Position numbers and translations under genes: made by a program. Shown here piece after piece: positions 6,255 to 61,065 of a stretch of 64,000 nt of DNA. Origin of the DNA: Gemmata massiliana (GTDB lineage: Bacteria > Planctomycetota > Planctomycetia > Gemmatales > Gemmataceae); NCBI RefSeq assembly GCF_901538265.1, contig NZ_LR593886.1:7523738-7587737 (forward strand), read 5' to 3'. Position 1 is the first letter of the stretch. Each line of letters opens with the position of its first letter. The notes beneath the pieces were generated by a model, which saw only the letters and a list, made by a program, of their open reading frames with translations, was not told the origin of the DNA and ran no database searches.

Positions 6255-6478
6255 TTCGCCACGGATGAACACAGAAAACACGGAGCAAGGCAACGGGCAG
6301 ATGCGTTTGAGCCCCGATAGGGCGAAGGCGAGCGCGTAGCAAGGGTGAAGTCCGCCAGGGGTTACGCTGCGCTTCACCCCTGGCTACGCGCGTCCGCCCC
6401 TAACGGGGCTCAAACGCACTGTCTTCTGATCTCTGCTTTTTGTCTTGATCCGCGTTTTCTGTGTTCATCCGTGGCGAA
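6255..6478. repeat. Nested inverted-repeat element (224 bp)
   Basis: The outer arms (6255-6283 and 6450-6478) pair over 29 bases with one mismatch and carry the sequence CCACGGATGAACACAGAAAA. Inside lie perfect 15-base arms (6302-6316 and 6404-6418) and an inner imperfect pair (6333-6350 and 6372-6390). The outer end recurs at 47.6, 52.6 and 55.8 kb, and the inner GCTTCACCCCTGGCTAC module recurs at about 55.65 kb. It lies between two minus-strand genes, 7 bases from the stop of the LipM-like gene. No protein is encoded. Confidence 0.88.
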
Positions 6479-6485
6479 TTTTGTC

Positions 6486-7223
6486 TCATCTCTTTTCGTT
6501 CCACGAACGGTTAGCGTACTTCTCCGCACGAATGGCCGGGGTGCGTTCTTGTTCCTCCACGGTCCATTTGCCCGGAACTATCGCCCAGCCCGTATCGGTC
6601 GCGAACGCTTCCGTTAGCATCTGCGCGAGAGCTTCGGGGGCGAATTTCGGTGCCTCCGCGTCGTCACACACGCCCGGAAGCTGCGGAGCGAACTCGCTGC
6701 GGTGGAGCAGGATGCTACCGTGTTGCAGCATCGCGCCGCGCATCTTCCGCTGAGCGCTACCGGCGACCTTCGAGCCGTTCAGGAGCAGATCGCCGGGCGT
6801 TTGGTGCAGGAAACACACGAGCGCACCGAGCTTCTGTTCCTCGCCGCAAACGACCGCGTGCGTCTTCACGCCGTGTTCCTTCAGCACGCCCTGCACAACG
6901 TGGTGGAACCGGCAGATCCAGTGTTCTTGCGACACCCACGCTTTGCCCGGCGGTAGTGCGAGGGCGTAGGTCAGCTCGTGGTGGTGGACGATCGCCGCCC
7001 CTCCGGTCGATCGACGGACCCACGGCAGCCCCGCGAGGTTCGCGTTGGCGCCGCGTTCCTCGGTGTGTTGGAAGTACCCGAGTGAGAGCGTCGGCTCGGT
7101 CCAGGTGTAAAACCGCAGCGACGCGATCCCGCCCACGGCGGACTCCAGCATCGCCTCGTCTGCGGACATGTTCGTGGCGCCGTCGGCACCGGTGAACGGC
7201 AACAAGCGGATGGTTTGGCTCAT
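6486..7223 (-). CDS. Lipoate/octanoate protein ligase family, LipM-like octanoyltransferase
   Basis: A 245-residue member of the BPL/LplA/LipB fold. Seen: RRSTGGAAIVHHHELTYAL near residues 70-88, the acyl-binding lysine in GSKVAGSAQ (K152), and LQHGSILL near 166-173. A cysteine (C137) lies at the position of the catalytic Cys of Bacillus LipM, which moves octanoyl groups from acyl carrier protein to lipoyl domains. That favours LipM-type transfer over free-lipoate ligation. No other lipoylation gene is in the window. A composite repeat begins 33 bases upstream of the start. Confidence 0.82.
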   Translation of the reverse strand: MSQTIRLLPFTGADGATNMSADEAMLESAVGGIASLRFYTWTEPTLSLGYFQHTEERGANANLAGLPWVRRSTGGAAIVHHHELTYALALPPGKAWVSQEHWICRFHHVVQGVLKEHGVKTHAVVCGEEQKLGALVCFLHQTPGDLLLNGSKVAGSAQRKMRGAMLQHGSILLHRSEFAPQLPGVCDDAEAPKFAPEALAQMLTEAFATDTGWAIVPGKWTVEEQERTPAIRAEKYANRSWNEKR

Positions 7224-7256: not shown

Positions 7257-7377
7257 ACACAGGGCTCCCGCCCTGTGCTACGGAAGTCGGCCCCATCCGG
7301 GGCGAAGACAAGTACCGTCAATGCCTTTCACGCCGCGGAGCGGCCGGCGTTCGTAGCACAGGGCGGAAGCCCTGTGT
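7257..7377. repeat. Composite palindromic element, full copy (about 121 bp)
   Basis: Each end is a short hairpin built on CACAGGGC/GCCCTGTG, followed by GTAGC on the inner side. The spacer contains a CCCCATCCGGGG hairpin and the palindromic GCCGCGGAGCGGCCGGC segment. The reverse complement matches 44501-44638 over nearly its whole length, so the same unit exists in both orientations. The layout (two inverted hairpins around a spacer) resembles REPIN-type non-autonomous elements. No transposase is present in the window. Confidence 0.88.
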
Positions 7378-7495: not shown

Positions 7496-8431
7496 GTGGA
7501 AGACCGTGAGCTGAAACTGTGGTCGGGTTGGCTCGGGCTGTTCGGAGTGCTGGTCGGTTTGGGTGCGGTCATCGCACTCATCGTGCTGGCCTCGCAGTGG
7601 AAAGAGCCGAAGTTGGTGTGGGCGATCGTTCCGCTGTCGCTTCTGTGGGTGATTTCTCTGGCGGGGTTCACCGTGAACGGGCCGAACCAGGCGCGTGTGG
7701 TGCAACTGTTCGGCAACTACGTCGGCACGCTGCGCAAAACCGGGTTCTTCTACGGCAACCCGTTCTACTGGCGCACGCGAGTAAGCCTGCGGGTGCAGGT
7801 GTTCGAGACCGGGATGAACAAGACGGACGAAACGAAGGACGCGACCGGGCGGGTCATCACGCAGGCCACGTCGCACCGCGAGCCGCTCAAGGTGAACGAC
7901 CACGACGGCACGCCGATCGAGATCGCGGCCGTGGTGCTGTGGAAGGTGGTGAACGCGGCCGAGGCGGTGTTCCAGGTGGACAACTACGAGGAGTTCGTGA
8001 AGCTCCAGGCGGACGCGGCTCTACGTAATCTCGCGAGCCGCTACAGTTACGACGCGCCCGACACCGATGCGCACTCGCTCCGCGGTCACATTGAGGAAGT
8101 GGCGAGCCAGTTGAAGCTCGAACTCCAGGCACGAATGCGGCAGGCCGGGGTGGAGGTTCAGGAGGCGCGCATCAGCTACTTGGCCTACGCACGCGAGATC
8201 GCGTCCGCGATGCTCCAGCGGCAGCAGGCCGGGGCCATCATCGCGGCCCGGGCGAAGATCGTCGAAGGGGCCGTTGGGATGGTGGAGCACGCGCTCCAGA
8301 TGCTCAACGAGAAGAACATCATCGAACTGGACGGCGAGCGCCGGGCCGCGATGGTGAGCAACCTGCTCGTGGTGCTCTGCGGGCACAGCGCACCGCAACC
8401 GGTGGTCAACACCGGCACGCTTTACAACTGA
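7496..8431 (+). CDS. SPFH/Band 7 domain membrane protein
   Basis: 311 residues, GTG start with GGAGG seven bases upstream. Two hydrophobic segments (about 13-33 and 41-60) anchor a cytosolic SPFH domain, which begins with NQARVVQLFGNYVGT and continues through a VWKV-type strand (VVLWKVVNAAEAVFQVDNYEEFV) and an Ala/Glu-rich coiled coil (SAMLQRQQAGAIIAARAKI). SPFH proteins form large membrane rings and scaffold membrane microdomains. A ribbon-helix-helix gene follows 1.2 kb downstream, with a hydrolase in between. Confidence 0.88.
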   Translation: MEDRELKLWSGWLGLFGVLVGLGAVIALIVLASQWKEPKLVWAIVPLSLLWVISLAGFTVNGPNQARVVQLFGNYVGTLRKTGFFYGNPFYWRTRVSLRVQVFETGMNKTDETKDATGRVITQATSHREPLKVNDHDGTPIEIAAVVLWKVVNAAEAVFQVDNYEEFVKLQADAALRNLASRYSYDAPDTDAHSLRGHIEEVASQLKLELQARMRQAGVEVQEARISYLAYAREIASAMLQRQQAGAIIAARAKIVEGAVGMVEHALQMLNEKNIIELDGERRAAMVSNLLVVLCGHSAPQPVVNTGTLYN

Positions 8432-8437
8432 GAAGAA

Positions 8438-8573
8438 ACCTACCCCCCGGCCCCCTCCCTGAAGGGAAGGGGAGAAAGAATCTGTGTTTTTCTCCCCTTC
8501 CCTTCAGGGAGGGGGCCGGGGGGTAGGTCCGCCTCTCTCCCCTTCCCTTCAGGGAGGGGGCCGGGGGGTAGGT
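8438..8573. repeat. Perfect 39-bp palindrome plus a third direct copy
   Basis: Arm 1 (8438-8476) is the exact reverse complement of arm 2 (8490-8528), with a 13-base loop. A third copy (8535-8573) repeats arm 2, with at most a small difference at its first base. The unit contains TACCCCCCGGCCCCCTCCC, itself flanked by CCTGAAGG. It fills the gap between the SPFH stop and the next gene. Arms this long and identical suggest a recent insertion or a strong terminator-like structure. No coding capacity. Confidence 0.92.
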
Positions 8574-8589
8574 TCTTCAGGAGCCACGC

Positions 8590-44472: not shown

Positions 44473-44500
44473 GAACCTCGGTTGTTACGCCCAAAAGATC

Positions 44501-44638
44501 ACAGGGCTCCCGCCCTGTGCTACGAACGCCGGCCGCTCCGCGGCGTGAAAGGCATTGAATGTACGACTCTTCGCCCCGGAGGGGGGCTCTTCGCCCCGGA
44601 GGGGCCGACTGACGTAGCACAAGGCGGAAGCCCTGTGT
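44501..44638. repeat. Composite palindromic element, full copy with a local duplication
   Basis: The ends carry CACAGGGC/GCCCTGTG hairpins with GTAGC inside, as at 7257-7377, but in the opposite orientation. The spacer repeats GGCTCTTCGCCCCGGAGGGG in tandem (44568-44604 region), making this copy about 17 bases longer. Outer hairpins and the shared internal segment GAACGCCGGCCGCTCCGCGG match the reverse complement of the 7.3-kb copy. It lies between tandem DUF1559-like genes. Confidence 0.87.
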
Positions 44639-47492: not shown

Positions 47493-47701
47493 AAGGCGGA
47501 GAACAGAACCGCAGATAACGCAGATTACGCGGATCAGACAAAAGAAGAATGCGTACTGGTAAGCCCCAACAATAGGGGCATAAAAATCATTCTCTTGTCT
47601 GATCTGCGTTATCCGCGTGATCCGCGGTTCTGTTCTCCGCCTTCTGAACTCTGTTCTCTGCTTTCTGATCTGTGTTTTCTGTGTTCATCCGTGGCGATTT
47701 T
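47493..47701. repeat. Inverted-repeat element with GATCCGCG and CCACGGATGAACAC modules
   Basis: Arms of about 49 bases (47493-47541 and 47595-47643) pair with only a few mismatches, around a 53-base centre containing AAGCCCCAACAATAGGGGC. A tail to 47701 ends with TTTTCTGTGTTCATCCGTGG, the same end as at 6450-6478 and 55771-55801. The tail abuts the stop of the DUF4129 gene (5 bases). Nothing protein-coding. Confidence 0.88.
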
Positions 47702-47705
47702 GCAC

Positions 47706-49583
47706 CTACACCCCGACCCCCGCGCCGTGGACCAGTTCCTCCCACACTTCTTCCAACACGACGAGCGTGTTGCCCGGAATCGGGAGCGTGGAGTACGCCA
47801 TCCGCGTGTAGAGGTTCGCGAGTCGCGCGAGTGGTTCCGCGCGATCGGGAAACGCTTCTCCCACTCGGCGCGCGAACTCCAGCGCAGTTTCGGTCGGTTC
47901 GCGCCCCGCGTCGCGGTCCCAGGCCCACGCATCGAACGCTTCAAATGAGTACGCAATGAGTTCCGCCGGGTCGCGCCCGTCCGCGGTGCCGTCGGCAAAC
48001 GGGTTCGAGTACGCGCTGAAGGGCGGCGGGCGCACGGGCGCCAGGGGTCGGGCTTCGTCCGCGCGGCTCTTGCGGACCGTGCTGGTCTTCTGACCAAACA
48101 GGTTGGCCCACCACGCGCGGATCGCTTCGAGCCAGCGCCGCGCCCACTCGGTGAACGGCGCGAGGTACTTCAGCACACCGAAGAACAGCCCGAAGATGAC
48201 GGCGAGAATAATCAGCGCGAACACGATCCACTTCACGCCCTTCGCGACTTGGGCCAGTACGCCGCTGAGTTGCGAATCGGGCGGCGAACTACTGTTTTGA
48301 TTGCGGTCCCCGCCGTCCTCCTTCGCGTCCTCGGATTCGCGGTCCGGACCGCCCCCGCGACTATCGTCCTGGTCCTTTTGGGCTTCGGACTCGTTCCCCG
48401 AGCCCTTCCCTTTGCCCTTATCGTTCCCGCCGGACTGGTCGCCCTTCTTCCCGCTGCCGCCCTTGCCGTCCTGTCCCTTCCCTCCCGATCCCTTATCGCC
48501 CTTGCTCCCACCACCGGGGTTTCCGCCCTTCCCGCTCGCGGACCCGTTGCCGGCCTTGGTCTTGTTCCCCCCGCGGCCGTCACCCTCACCGGCCGAATCG
48601 CCGAGTTGGGCGTACTTTGAAGCGTCGCGTTTGGCCTTCCCCGCGCGTTCGATGCCGAACCAGGGCACTTCGGAGTGCGGGCGCGGGAGGAACGCCCCGA
48701 ACACCAGGAACACCACGATGAGTATCCCGCCCAAACCGAGCCAGCTCGCGGTCATCGCGCCGGGCACTTTCGCCTTGCGCTGCCGCAAATAGCGTCGAAC
48801 CCCCAATAGGCTCGTGGTCACGAGCAGCCCGAGCGCGCTCGCGATGTACACCGTCATTTGAACGAGCGTCGCCCACCGGCGCTTGTCGTCGTTGGAGTCG
48901 ACGAGCGACTGCCCCAGCGCGAATAACGGCAGTGCCGCGAGCGCGAAGTACAGCACCCACACTCCGGGCGTGTGGCCCGTTTTGCGCTGCGATTCGCGGT
49001 GCGCTTTGTACTTCTCGATCCAGTCCCACAAGCGCGAATCGTGCTGCGCTTTCTTTTTCTTCCCGCGCCGCTTGCGTTCCGGTTTCGCTTTCGGTTGGGA
49101 ATCACCCCCGACCTCGCGGTCGGGGTTCACCTTCTCGTCGTCCGCATCGAGACCGGCCGCCGAGAGCAGCCCGCGCCCACTCGCTTCCGCCTTCTCGTCG
49201 ATGTGCGTGCAGTCCCAGGTGAGTTTGTGCGCGCTCCACCAGACGAGGACGAGCAGCCCGAGGTTGACGAGCCAGCCCCAGGACTTGAGCCACCCACCGG
49301 GGTACTCGACGTATGAAAGCAGCGCGAGGTACGTGACGATCGCGAGCGCGACGCCATAAATCTTGGCGCGCCCGGCGTCGTACTGGATGGAAATGCGCGC
49401 GACGAGCACCGCGGCGAACACGAAGAAGAAGATCGTGTACAGCAGCCGGTCCGAGTACCGCCCCTCGTACAGCACTTCGATGAGGAAGAACACGAGGCTG
49501 CCGACCATGAGCATGACGAGCGCCGGGCTGAGCGCGGTCACGACGTAGTCGGCAACGGACGGCGATTCGCGTTCGGAGGCCAT
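47706..49583 (-). CDS. DUF4129 domain membrane protein
   Basis: 625 residues. Hydrophobic helices near 13-37, 46-62, 74-92, 102-118, 210-228, 240-258, 278-300 and 449-470. A low-complexity linker (about 330-430) is rich in Gly, Lys, Ser and Asp. The C-terminal DUF4129 segment has ELIAYSFEAFDAWAW, PTETALEFARRVGEAFPD and LARLANLYTRMAYS near 550-610. DUF4129 proteins are often next to transglutaminase-like and MoxR/DUF58 genes; none is seen here. Function unknown. Confidence 0.85.
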   Translation of the reverse strand: MASERESPSVADYVVTALSPALVMLMVGSLVFFLIEVLYEGRYSDRLLYTIFFFVFAAVLVARISIQYDAGRAKIYGVALAIVTYLALLSYVEYPGGWLKSWGWLVNLGLLVLVWWSAHKLTWDCTHIDEKAEASGRGLLSAAGLDADDEKVNPDREVGGDSQPKAKPERKRRGKKKKAQHDSRLWDWIEKYKAHRESQRKTGHTPGVWVLYFALAALPLFALGQSLVDSNDDKRRWATLVQMTVYIASALGLLVTTSLLGVRRYLRQRKAKVPGAMTASWLGLGGILIVVFLVFGAFLPRPHSEVPWFGIERAGKAKRDASKYAQLGDSAGEGDGRGGNKTKAGNGSASGKGGNPGGGSKGDKGSGGKGQDGKGGSGKKGDQSGGNDKGKGKGSGNESEAQKDQDDSRGGGPDRESEDAKEDGGDRNQNSSSPPDSQLSGVLAQVAKGVKWIVFALIILAVIFGLFFGVLKYLAPFTEWARRWLEAIRAWWANLFGQKTSTVRKSRADEARPLAPVRPPPFSAYSNPFADGTADGRDPAELIAYSFEAFDAWAWDRDAGREPTETALEFARRVGEAFPDRAEPLARLANLYTRMAYSTLPIPGNTLVVLEEVWEELVHGAGVGV

Positions 49584-52637: not shown

Positions 52638-52848
52638 ATGCCGCCACGGATGAACGCAGAAAACACGGATCAAGACAGAGATCAAAGGGCAAAAAGCAGA
52701 ACCGCGGATCACGCAGATAACGCAGATCAGACAAGAGAATGATTTTTAGCCCCACCGAGGCTGAACGAATACTCATTCTTCCTTTGTCTGATCCGCGTTA
52801 TCTGCGTGATCCGCGGTTCTGCTTTCTGATCCGCCTTTCGCATTCCCA
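52638..52848. repeat. Inverted-repeat element of the GATCCGCG family
   Basis: Starts with GCCACGGATGAACGCAGAAAACACGG, then AAAGCAGAACCGCGGATCACGCAG (from 52693), which pairs with 52784-52825 (TTGTCTGATCCGCGTTATCTGCG and so on), 42-base arms with few mismatches. The centre contains AGCCCC/GAGGCT. It begins 11 bases after the PSCyt1 stop. Same modules as at 47493-47701 and 55590-55801. Confidence 0.86.
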
Positions 52849-52921
52849 CTCTGAAAGCCGTTCGCCGCGGTACGGTATCCGCCGTAAGAAAACGTGAAGT
52901 GTCGTTCACCCCGGGCGGGTC

Positions 52922-55589: not shown

Positions 55590-55801
55590 CGCGGGCGTCT
55601 CGCCCGCATTGTTGGATGTGGAAGTTAGCCAGGGGTTGCGCGTTGCTTCACCCCTGGCTACTCGCTGCCGCCCCTAATCGGGGCTAAAAATCGCTCTCGT
55701 GTCTGATTCGCGTAATCTGCGTGATCCGCGGCTCTGTTCTCTGCCTTCTGAACTCTGTTCTCTGCCTTGATCCGTGTTTTCTGTGTTCATCCGTGGCGGA
55801 T
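55590..55801. repeat. Inverted-repeat element with mixed modules
   Basis: Starts with ACCGCGGGCGTCTCGCCCGC (short hairpin). Then GTTAGCCAGGGGTTGCGCG with GCTTCACCCCTGGCTAC, the inner module also found at 6333-6390, then TCGTGTCTGATTCGCG words of the GATCCGCG family. The element ends with TTTTCTGTGTTCATCCGTGGCG, as at 6455-6477. It lies 10 bases from the prenyltransferase-fold stop and 21 from the aldo/keto reductase stop. Confidence 0.8.
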
Positions 55802-55821
55802 TTCGGCTTTCCTTCGCCCCT

Positions 55822-57625: not shown

Positions 57626-57697
57626 TGGGGCAATATCGGCCGAACGGCGACGGGGCTTCAGTGGTTCGTTTGCGGCGCGAGTTAAATGCTCTTGTTC

Positions 57698-57753
57698 GTG
57701 GCACAGGCCAGAGGCCTGTGGGAACACTCTCACAGGCCTCTGGCCTGTGCCAC
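57698..57753. repeat. Perfect 23-bp inverted repeat
   Basis: Arms 57698-57720 and 57731-57753 are exact complements (GTGGCACAGGCCAGAGGCC...), with a 10-base loop. GGCCAGAGGCC within each arm is itself palindromic, giving a hairpin-within-hairpin form. It lies between the DUF2293 start and the ATPase stop, and no other copy was noticed in the window. Confidence 0.88.
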
Positions 57754-57818
57754 CAAACCAAAAACCAAACTCATCAATTCAACAATGCACAGTAAGCCCC
57801 GAAAACATTACCAAATCG

Positions 57819-60820: not shown

Positions 60821-61065
60821 GATTGGCCACAAAAAGACAGAGGACAGAGAACAGACGTCAGAAAACAGATCAGAAGACAAGGACAGGAAGCAAACGTGTA
60901 TTGGCTTGAAGCTCATCCGGGGCTTCAAATCGTCCCCTTGTCTGATCTGCGTAATCTGCGTTATCCGCGGCACTGTTTTCTGATCTCCGCGCTCCGTCTT
61001 CTGTTCTCTGCCTTCTGTCCTCTGCTCTCTTCTTTTGTGCCCTTTGTGCCTTTTTGTGGCCAATC
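60821..61065. repeat. Inverted-repeat element (245 bp), GATTGGCCACAAAAAG ends
   Basis: The ends GATTGGCCACAAAAA (60821-60835) and its exact complement (61051-61065) enclose further arms: AGACAGAGGACAGAGAACAG with TTCTGTCCTCTGCTCTC, and words such as GATCTGCG and TTATCCGCGG of the GATCCGCG family, around a GAAGCTCATCCGGGGCTTC hairpin. It lies between the MerR start and the ABC-2 permease stop. Confidence 0.85.

Follow-up and report, generated by a model that had tools for sequence, protein, structure and literature searches.

What is the hairpin-rich repeat that lies at 7257-7377 of this stretch of the Gemmata massiliana genome, and which enzyme could have spread it? We analyzed the whole stretch of 64,000 nucleotides (hereafter, the window) together with the genome from which it comes. 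The results indicated that the reverse complement of 7257-7377 corresponds to 44500-44638, with 109 of the 120 aligned bases identical and one insertion of 19 bases in the second copy, which represents a duplicated inner hairpin within the spacer. The sequence-only reading had reported this repeat in both orientations, and the repeat is real, with the start of the second copy corrected from 44501 to 44500. Each unit is composed of an outer hairpin (CACAGGGC-n4-GCCCTGTG), CTAC, an inner hairpin, a short spacer, another inner hairpin, GTAG and an outer hairpin. The outer hairpin possesses an 8-bp stem and a 4-nt loop and carries its GTAG tag on the inward side, and the second end of the unit is an inverted copy of the first. 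With up to 3 mismatches allowed, the window holds 5 copies of the 20-mer at the end of the unit, GTAGCACAGGGCGGAAGCCC, while none of 100 dinucleotide-preserving shuffles contained any. When folded as single-stranded DNA, 7257-7377 formed one long hairpin (-49.8 kcal/mol, z -9.5) and the copy at 44500-44638 reached a z of -8.6; in neither case was any of 200 shuffles equally stable. A comparison of the window with Rfam gave no match.

The first unit is a complete tail-to-tail REP doublet located between divergent genes, namely, a lipoate ligase-like gene (6489-7223, minus strand) and a Band_7 gene (7496-8428, plus strand). Its left outer hairpin, CACAGGGC-TCCC-GCCCTGTG, occupies 7258-7277 on the minus strand, the GTAG of that strand being read as CTAC at 7278-7281, and its right outer hairpin occupies 7357-7376 on the plus strand, preceded by the GTAG tag at 7353-7356. 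Between them are two inner hairpins of types that were distinguished by eye: type A (GGCCCC..GGGGC) at 7288-7304 and type B (with CCGCGG; here CGCCGCGG AG CGGCCGGCG) at 7331-7349, the latter recognized by eye only, as the search pattern used for type B gave no match there. The second complete doublet (44500-44638) is in the reversed orientation and lies between two codirectional DUF1559 genes; one outer hairpin is found at 44500-44519 on the minus strand (CTAC at 44520-44523), and the other, with its GTAG tag, at 44614-44637 on the plus strand (hairpin 44618-44637, with one stem mismatch). Thus, in the three annotated window loci, both complete units fall between Pfam-supported genes. The third locus is a half unit that had been placed at 661-715; it is present, but its limits are better given as 666-715. 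It contains GTAG (666-669), an outer hairpin (670-689), CTAC (690-693) and an inner hairpin of type A (700-715), and is therefore tagged on both sides. This half unit follows a DUF1501 gene and precedes a CobW domain; the longest of the possible CobW frames (636-2012) would enclose it. In its form, it resembles the 'double foot' REP described in the text of PMC6006769, which could arise, according to that text, through the central deletion of a dimer; the arrangement of tags in 666-715 would suit such an origin.

Searches of the 10,135,216-base single-contig genome revealed that the copies are not rare. There were 53 core sites at no more than 1 mismatch (27 forward and 26 reverse), while the reversed control gave 0, and a BLAST search with the unit returned 71 matches, many of which were one place counted on both strands. 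In addition, all 14 pairs of exactly tagged neighbors less than 300 bp apart had their tags inward (tail-to-tail), with a spacing of 91-95 or 133-152 bp. In copy number and pair orientation, the earlier idea of a planctomycete analog of REPINs was thus borne out; its RAYT part was not, as described below. Among 95 genomes of the family, the exact tagged hairpin was present in 15 of the 19 genomes of the genus to which the window belongs and in 0 of the 76 others. Two congeners, G009 and G011, have the doublet at 7257 itself in the same place; in 16 other fetched loci of the neighboring gene, from 15 genomes, it was not found.

These properties agree with those of the GTAG REP superfamily described in the text of PMC3733652 (Di Nocera et al. 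2013), in which short stem-loops with GTAG at one end are dispersed, often as inverted dimers that include tail-to-tail ones, and some have structured spacers. A stem of approximately 6-13 bp with an unpaired GTAG is found at 41 exact sites (GTAG-CACAGGGC-n-GCCCTGTG) in the genome of the window, with 0 in the control, and the dispersal and inverted dimers are evident from the 53 core sites and the 14 of 14 tail-to-tail pairs. In the passages of that text that were compared, the CACAGGGC stem and the spacers with A and B inner hairpins do not appear, although its Figure 1 may contain an identical family. A planctomycete REP is not new in itself: the same text reports GTAG repeats from Planctomycetes and names R. 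baltica. Nothing that connects repetitive extragenic palindromes with Gemmata, or a tyrosine transposase and a palindrome with Rhodopirellula, was found in the literature searched.

The genome of the window, in which a RAYT gene had been proposed as worth looking for, gave no match to Y1_Tnp (PF01797), and the same search gave matches in 5 of 14 control genomes; Y1_Tnp matches were present in 79 of the 95 family genomes. No remnant of the cognate TnpA described below was detected in this genome at E<=0.01, and a relaxed profile search at E<=10 returned a single match, with E=1.4, inside a 1017-codon frame. We also considered a transposase between hairpins at genome positions 3172999-3174268, and rejected it after inspection of the frames in this genome without a Y1 match.

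In the congeners, however, the same hairpin is found beside a Y1 gene. We searched the 19 genus genomes with the protein of G011 and obtained 42 matches in all, with loci available for 30. Five TnpA copies showed 70-99% identity (69-99% by tblastn), one each in G010, G011, G018, G019 and G025, and there was nothing between 70 and 51%. In all five copies (at least 69% identity), the same hairpin flanks TnpA on both sides within approximately 260 bp, whereas CACAGGGC was present in 0 of 25 fetched loci of homologs at 51% identity or less; in 3 of these 25 loci, one flank was shortened by a contig end, and five CCCAGGGC hairpins of one locus (L142), which fit a 2-substitution pattern, were left out of the CACAGGGC count. 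The copy in G019 served as a small independent test, its flanks having been previously unexamined. The Y1 gene of G010 is enclosed by two CACAGGGC hairpins whose starts are 742 bp from each other; the idea that this tnpA sits inside one doublet was rejected, the inner hairpins being decayed (by eye), and we take the gene to be located between two doublets, as in G011. All five copies sit between groups of hairpins, and no movement as a unit was observed. Four genomes (G000, G009, G012 and G020) carry 10-41 tagged sites without a TnpA match of at least 69% identity, which could reflect loss, incomplete assemblies or the dispensability of TnpA. Because no TnpA was found in the genome of the window, only the same hairpin in congeners ties this enzyme to the copies studied here, and the repeats of the window appear to be orphans of their enzyme.

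To reveal what kind of enzyme the cognate TnpA is, we aligned four of the five proteins (148 aa). The HUH histidines, WQ and Y---Q--HH were present in all four, with the HUH variants DHVH in two, DHIH in one and GHVH in one. Across 110 related loci, which include the five cognate copies and three repeats of them, Y---Q--HH was found in 101, WQ in 107 and a loose HuH pattern in 105, while Y..NP was found in 0. In NCBIfam, the nearest model for all four proteins was that of IS200 (46-56 bits against a cut-off of 55, with one of the four above it), and the RAYT model, which has a cut-off of 80 bits, matched one of the four with 29 bits. In a wider set of 18 proteins, the IS200 model matched all 18 (best E 3e-23) and the RAYT model 14 (best E 4e-10). 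Profile matches in the PDB were to ISHp608 TnpA and to entries labeled 'transposase', presumably including ISDra2 TnpA; none was labeled as a REP nuclease, and two further matches at E of approximately 1 were unrelated. Table 1 of PMC6006769 (Quentin et al. 2018) lists a TnpAY1 subclass 1.2 with 148 aa, DH[IV]H, WQ and YIKNQKEHH, 'REP: no', and a distribution in Cyanobacteria and Bacteroidetes. By the motifs printed in this table, rather than by a tree, the cognate TnpA would belong to this IS200-like subclass 1.2 and not to RAYTs. The RAYT part of the sequence-only reading is not supported, the cognate enzyme of congeners having Y---Q--HH instead of Y..NP.

We then asked whether relatives of this TnpA elsewhere have hairpins of their own. 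The genome_contigs collection (84,980 species) was scanned with four proteins, which yielded 376 relatives, and the best 80 of these were taken. By their record titles, these 80 come from Planctomycetota, Verrucomicrobiota, Acidobacteriota, several deltaproteobacterial groups (Desulfobacterota-type) and others. Rows with short flanks or no tblastn match were left out (6 of the 80 relatives and 20 of the 80 controls). Among the 74 testable relatives, 36 had at least 2 hairpins of the same core within 500 bp, and 32 had them on both sides; by this test, the other 42 of the 74 did not show such hairpins on both sides. Three records (L244-L246) contain the same genes as the copies of G025, G019 and G018, and without them, the numbers were 33 of 71 and 29 of 71, respectively. 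In contrast, matching hairpins on both sides occurred in 0 of 60 control windows located 900-1400 bp away in the same loci; among 300 random windows of congener loci (L226-L243), at least 2 same-core hairpins occurred in 20, and on both sides in 0.

The hairpins that recur beside the relatives mostly have an 8-bp stem and a 4-nt loop, in a listing that allowed longer stems and loops of 3-8. Restricted to this 8-4-8 form, a tally of the tags of 101 repeated hairpins, with both flanks counted, gave GTAG for 39, ATAG for 22, TTAG for 14 and CTAG for 4. For example, GTAG-tagged hairpins were found beside TnpA in a Rhodopirellula sp. record (L299), and several TnpAs more distant than the five carry hairpins of other kinds. 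The distance between TnpAs was correlated with the distance between stems (Mantel r 0.25, reached in 0 of 5000 permutations, n=40 including the five CACAGGGC rows). In the nearest upstream hairpin, the tag was distal to tnpA in 19 of 43 cases, proximal in 11 and absent in 13; in the nearest downstream hairpin, it was distal in 21 of 38, proximal in 9, on both sides in 2 and absent in 6. These mixed tag sides illustrate that the orientation of the hairpins around tnpA is not uniform. The cognate TnpA agrees with subclass 1.2 in length (148 aa), HxH, WQ and Y---Q--HH; a difference from the entry in Table 1 of PMC6006769 is that NTAG-tagged hairpins adjoin the genes found here and that these come from Planctomycetota, Verrucomicrobiota, Acidobacteriota, Desulfobacterota-type groups and others. 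Neither the text of PMC6006769 nor the other literature searched, in which few subscription journals were covered, was found to describe subclass 1.2 as REP-associated. In the text of PMC3733652, R. baltica has many tyrosine transposases with flanking repeats; these may be of the same clade, in which case the association was partly already seen, though not so classed.

The flanks of the doublets were compared for signatures of insertion, leaving out of the flank statistics ends with less than 120 bases of flank, an outer-side tag or repeated flanks. Target-site duplications in 51 doublets did not exceed those of shuffled data (mean 1.20, compared with 1.05 after shuffling; 186 of 2000 shuffles reached the observed value). 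The outer flanks are pyrimidine-rich: CT was present within 10 bases of the outer ends in 60% of cases in the genome of the window (n=50) and 67% in five congeners (n=92), compared with 34-38% further out, and the frequency of T at positions 3-8 was 0.42 vs. 0.21-0.23 further out in the former and 0.30 vs. 0.21 in the latter. This modest enrichment of CT and pyrimidines would agree with a model of cleavage at CT sites and is not proof of it. Of the 51 doublets, 6 had inverted matches of at least 4 bp between the two flanks (the mean over 5000 shuffles was 0.99 and the largest value 5), all 6 in congeners and none among the 19 doublets of the window's genome. A locus that carries doublets in G009 and G011 was reduced in the genome of the window to a single hairpin with one stem mismatch and inverted flanks of 13 bases; the flanks of G009 at this locus match over 9 other bases. 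We read the inverted flanks as hairpin-templated correction, also termed quasipalindrome mutation, and not as a signature of insertion.

No clean filled and empty site was found among the gene loci beside the window element, in a 9-kb stretch of G011 with three element places, in a 10.5-kb stretch of the window's genome with two element places or when the element loci of G000, G009 and G011 were compared with one another. At the compared sites, the element was shared or partly deleted, or its surroundings had undergone rearrangement or had diverged too far. One REP doublet of G011 (L185, approximately 7513-7721) lies at a synteny breakpoint, its flanks matching places approximately 2.2 Mb apart in the window's genome.

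Several other repeats were noted in and around these loci. A second GTAG-type REP family, TAG-CCAGGGGT-n-ACCCCTGG, is present at 6355-6386 and 55626-55657 of the window. The genome matches its pattern exactly 15 times, some of these matches being one hairpin tagged on both sides, and related TnpA genes of G026 (L141) and of Limnoglobus roseus (L260) have hairpins with the CCAGGGGT stem in their flanks. The hairpin GTGG-CACAGGCC-n-GGCCTGTG at 57695-57756 possibly represents a third REP family. Repeats around TCTGCGTTATCCGCGTGATCCGCGG and CATCCGTGGCGAA, both direct and inverted, are scattered over 47493-47706, 52641-52853, 55680-55808, 60919-61035 and 6255-6486, and one REP doublet (L069) has similar sequence in its flanks. 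At 8437-8574, a sequence of 38-40 bp (ACCTACCCCCCGGCCCCC...) is present three times, twice direct and once inverted, at 98-100% identity. Outside the window, a near-palindrome of approximately 70 bp (L225:10040-10109, genome approximately 7712539-7712608) has dozens of copies that are 84-99% identical, with matches to either strand of G009 and G011. In G011, an IS110-family gene lies within a REP doublet (L118), and L134 shows the same inner-hairpin junction with a similar gap. IS elements that insert into REPs have been described before, ISPpu9 being one example.

Other explanations of the repeats have to be weighed against mobilization by such a TnpA. Transcription terminators or mRNA-stabilizing hairpins, kept for regulation and not relics of mobile DNA, would also be stable, as every hairpin here is, two outer hairpins score as terminator-like, and the outer flanks are T-rich. 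However, the terminator-like counts were near those of shuffles (2 vs. a mean of 1.7 and 3 vs. a mean of 1.5), the element at 7257 lies between divergent genes, neither of which needs a terminator, and the spacers with inner hairpins, the fixed pair orientation and the place beside one transposase clade would be unexpected. This explanation is therefore unlikely; a side role in regulation is possible for the hairpins. Less likely still, and in our view very improbable, is that the repeats are MITEs, derived by internal deletion from a classical DDE transposon that bears terminal inverted repeats. The long imperfect inverted ends, the lack of an internal transposase and the dispersed copies in both orientations fit MITEs, but the doublets show no excess of target-site duplications, and the gene that repeatedly adjoins the hairpins is of the Y1/HUH type; the ISL3-like gene found within one G010 doublet (L117), like the IS110 gene within the G011 doublet (L118), looks like a secondary insertion.

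It could further be supposed that these are genuine REPINs whose class-2 RAYT has disappeared from this genome and went unrecognized in congeners, the subclass-1.2 TnpA being a bystander inserted near REPs. RAYT-associated REPs in the text of PMC3733652 have the same GTAG tag and doublet architecture, and the TnpAs of this group also match the NCBIfam RAYT model to the extent given above. Against this stand the clade-specific matching of TnpA and hairpin (5/5 vs. 0/25), the matching hairpins around relatives in several phyla, the better fit of the IS200 model and the finding of Y..NP in 0 of 110 proteins, a set made up of this clade and its relatives. We thus hold this scenario, like that of terminators, to be improbable. 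The likeness to REPIN/RAYT systems (class 2 TnpA_REP) consists of inverted REP doublets, of short doublets without an internal transposase and, in congeners, of a gene for a tyrosine HUH transposase that is surrounded by its cognate REPs; the difference lies in the IS200-type Y---Q--HH of the cognate TnpA instead of Y..NP, and in that none was found in the window's genome. With IS200/IS605 elements (subclass 1.1), the system shares a related Y1 HUH transposase and hairpins with 5' tetranucleotides; unlike in those elements, the hairpins form inverted doublets, with dozens of dispersed copies without the gene.

The explanation that we prefer, at a probability of roughly three in four, is that the repeat, with its observed anatomy, copy number, fixed orientation, genus restriction and association with TnpA, is a GTAG-tagged REP doublet that was mobilized in single-stranded form by a subclass-1.2 TnpA of the congener type and is orphaned in the genome of the window. 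In the text of PMC8266576, the TnpA_REP enzymes of E. coli, S. maltophilia and Marinomonas cut single-stranded REPs, with a dependence on GTAG that varies, and they do so at CT beside the hairpin, the Marinomonas enzyme also at CA. Both the CT-enriched outer flanks and the lack of excess target-site duplications agree with this. By analogy with this biochemistry, TnpA would bind the outer hairpin as single-stranded DNA, GTAG would serve it as a guide, and cleavage would occur at close-by pyrimidine-rich (CT-type) sites. The doublet would then be copied or moved via single-stranded intermediates, such as the lagging-strand template. The window's genome would once have had TnpA and subsequently lost it, and the remaining population of repeats, ageing and non-mobile, would decay by internal deletion and by hairpin-templated changes of the flanks.

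REPs are among the commonest repeats of bacteria, and their mode of spread is unproven. The pairing of a cognate REP with an IS200-type TnpA directly connects insertion sequences with REPs, and the system offers a small enzyme and a simple 20-nt hairpin, the recognition of which is testable. Somewhat less firmly than the reading of the window itself, we consider it probable that TnpAY1 subclass 1.2 is a further widespread kind of REP-mobilizing enzyme, paired across several phyla with cognate NTAG-tagged hairpins (8-bp stem, 4-nt loop), and that the Gemmataceae repeats of the window represent a family of this sort that persists after the loss of its enzyme. The genus includes species that have tnpA and others that apparently lack it, and the turnover of REPs can be compared between them.
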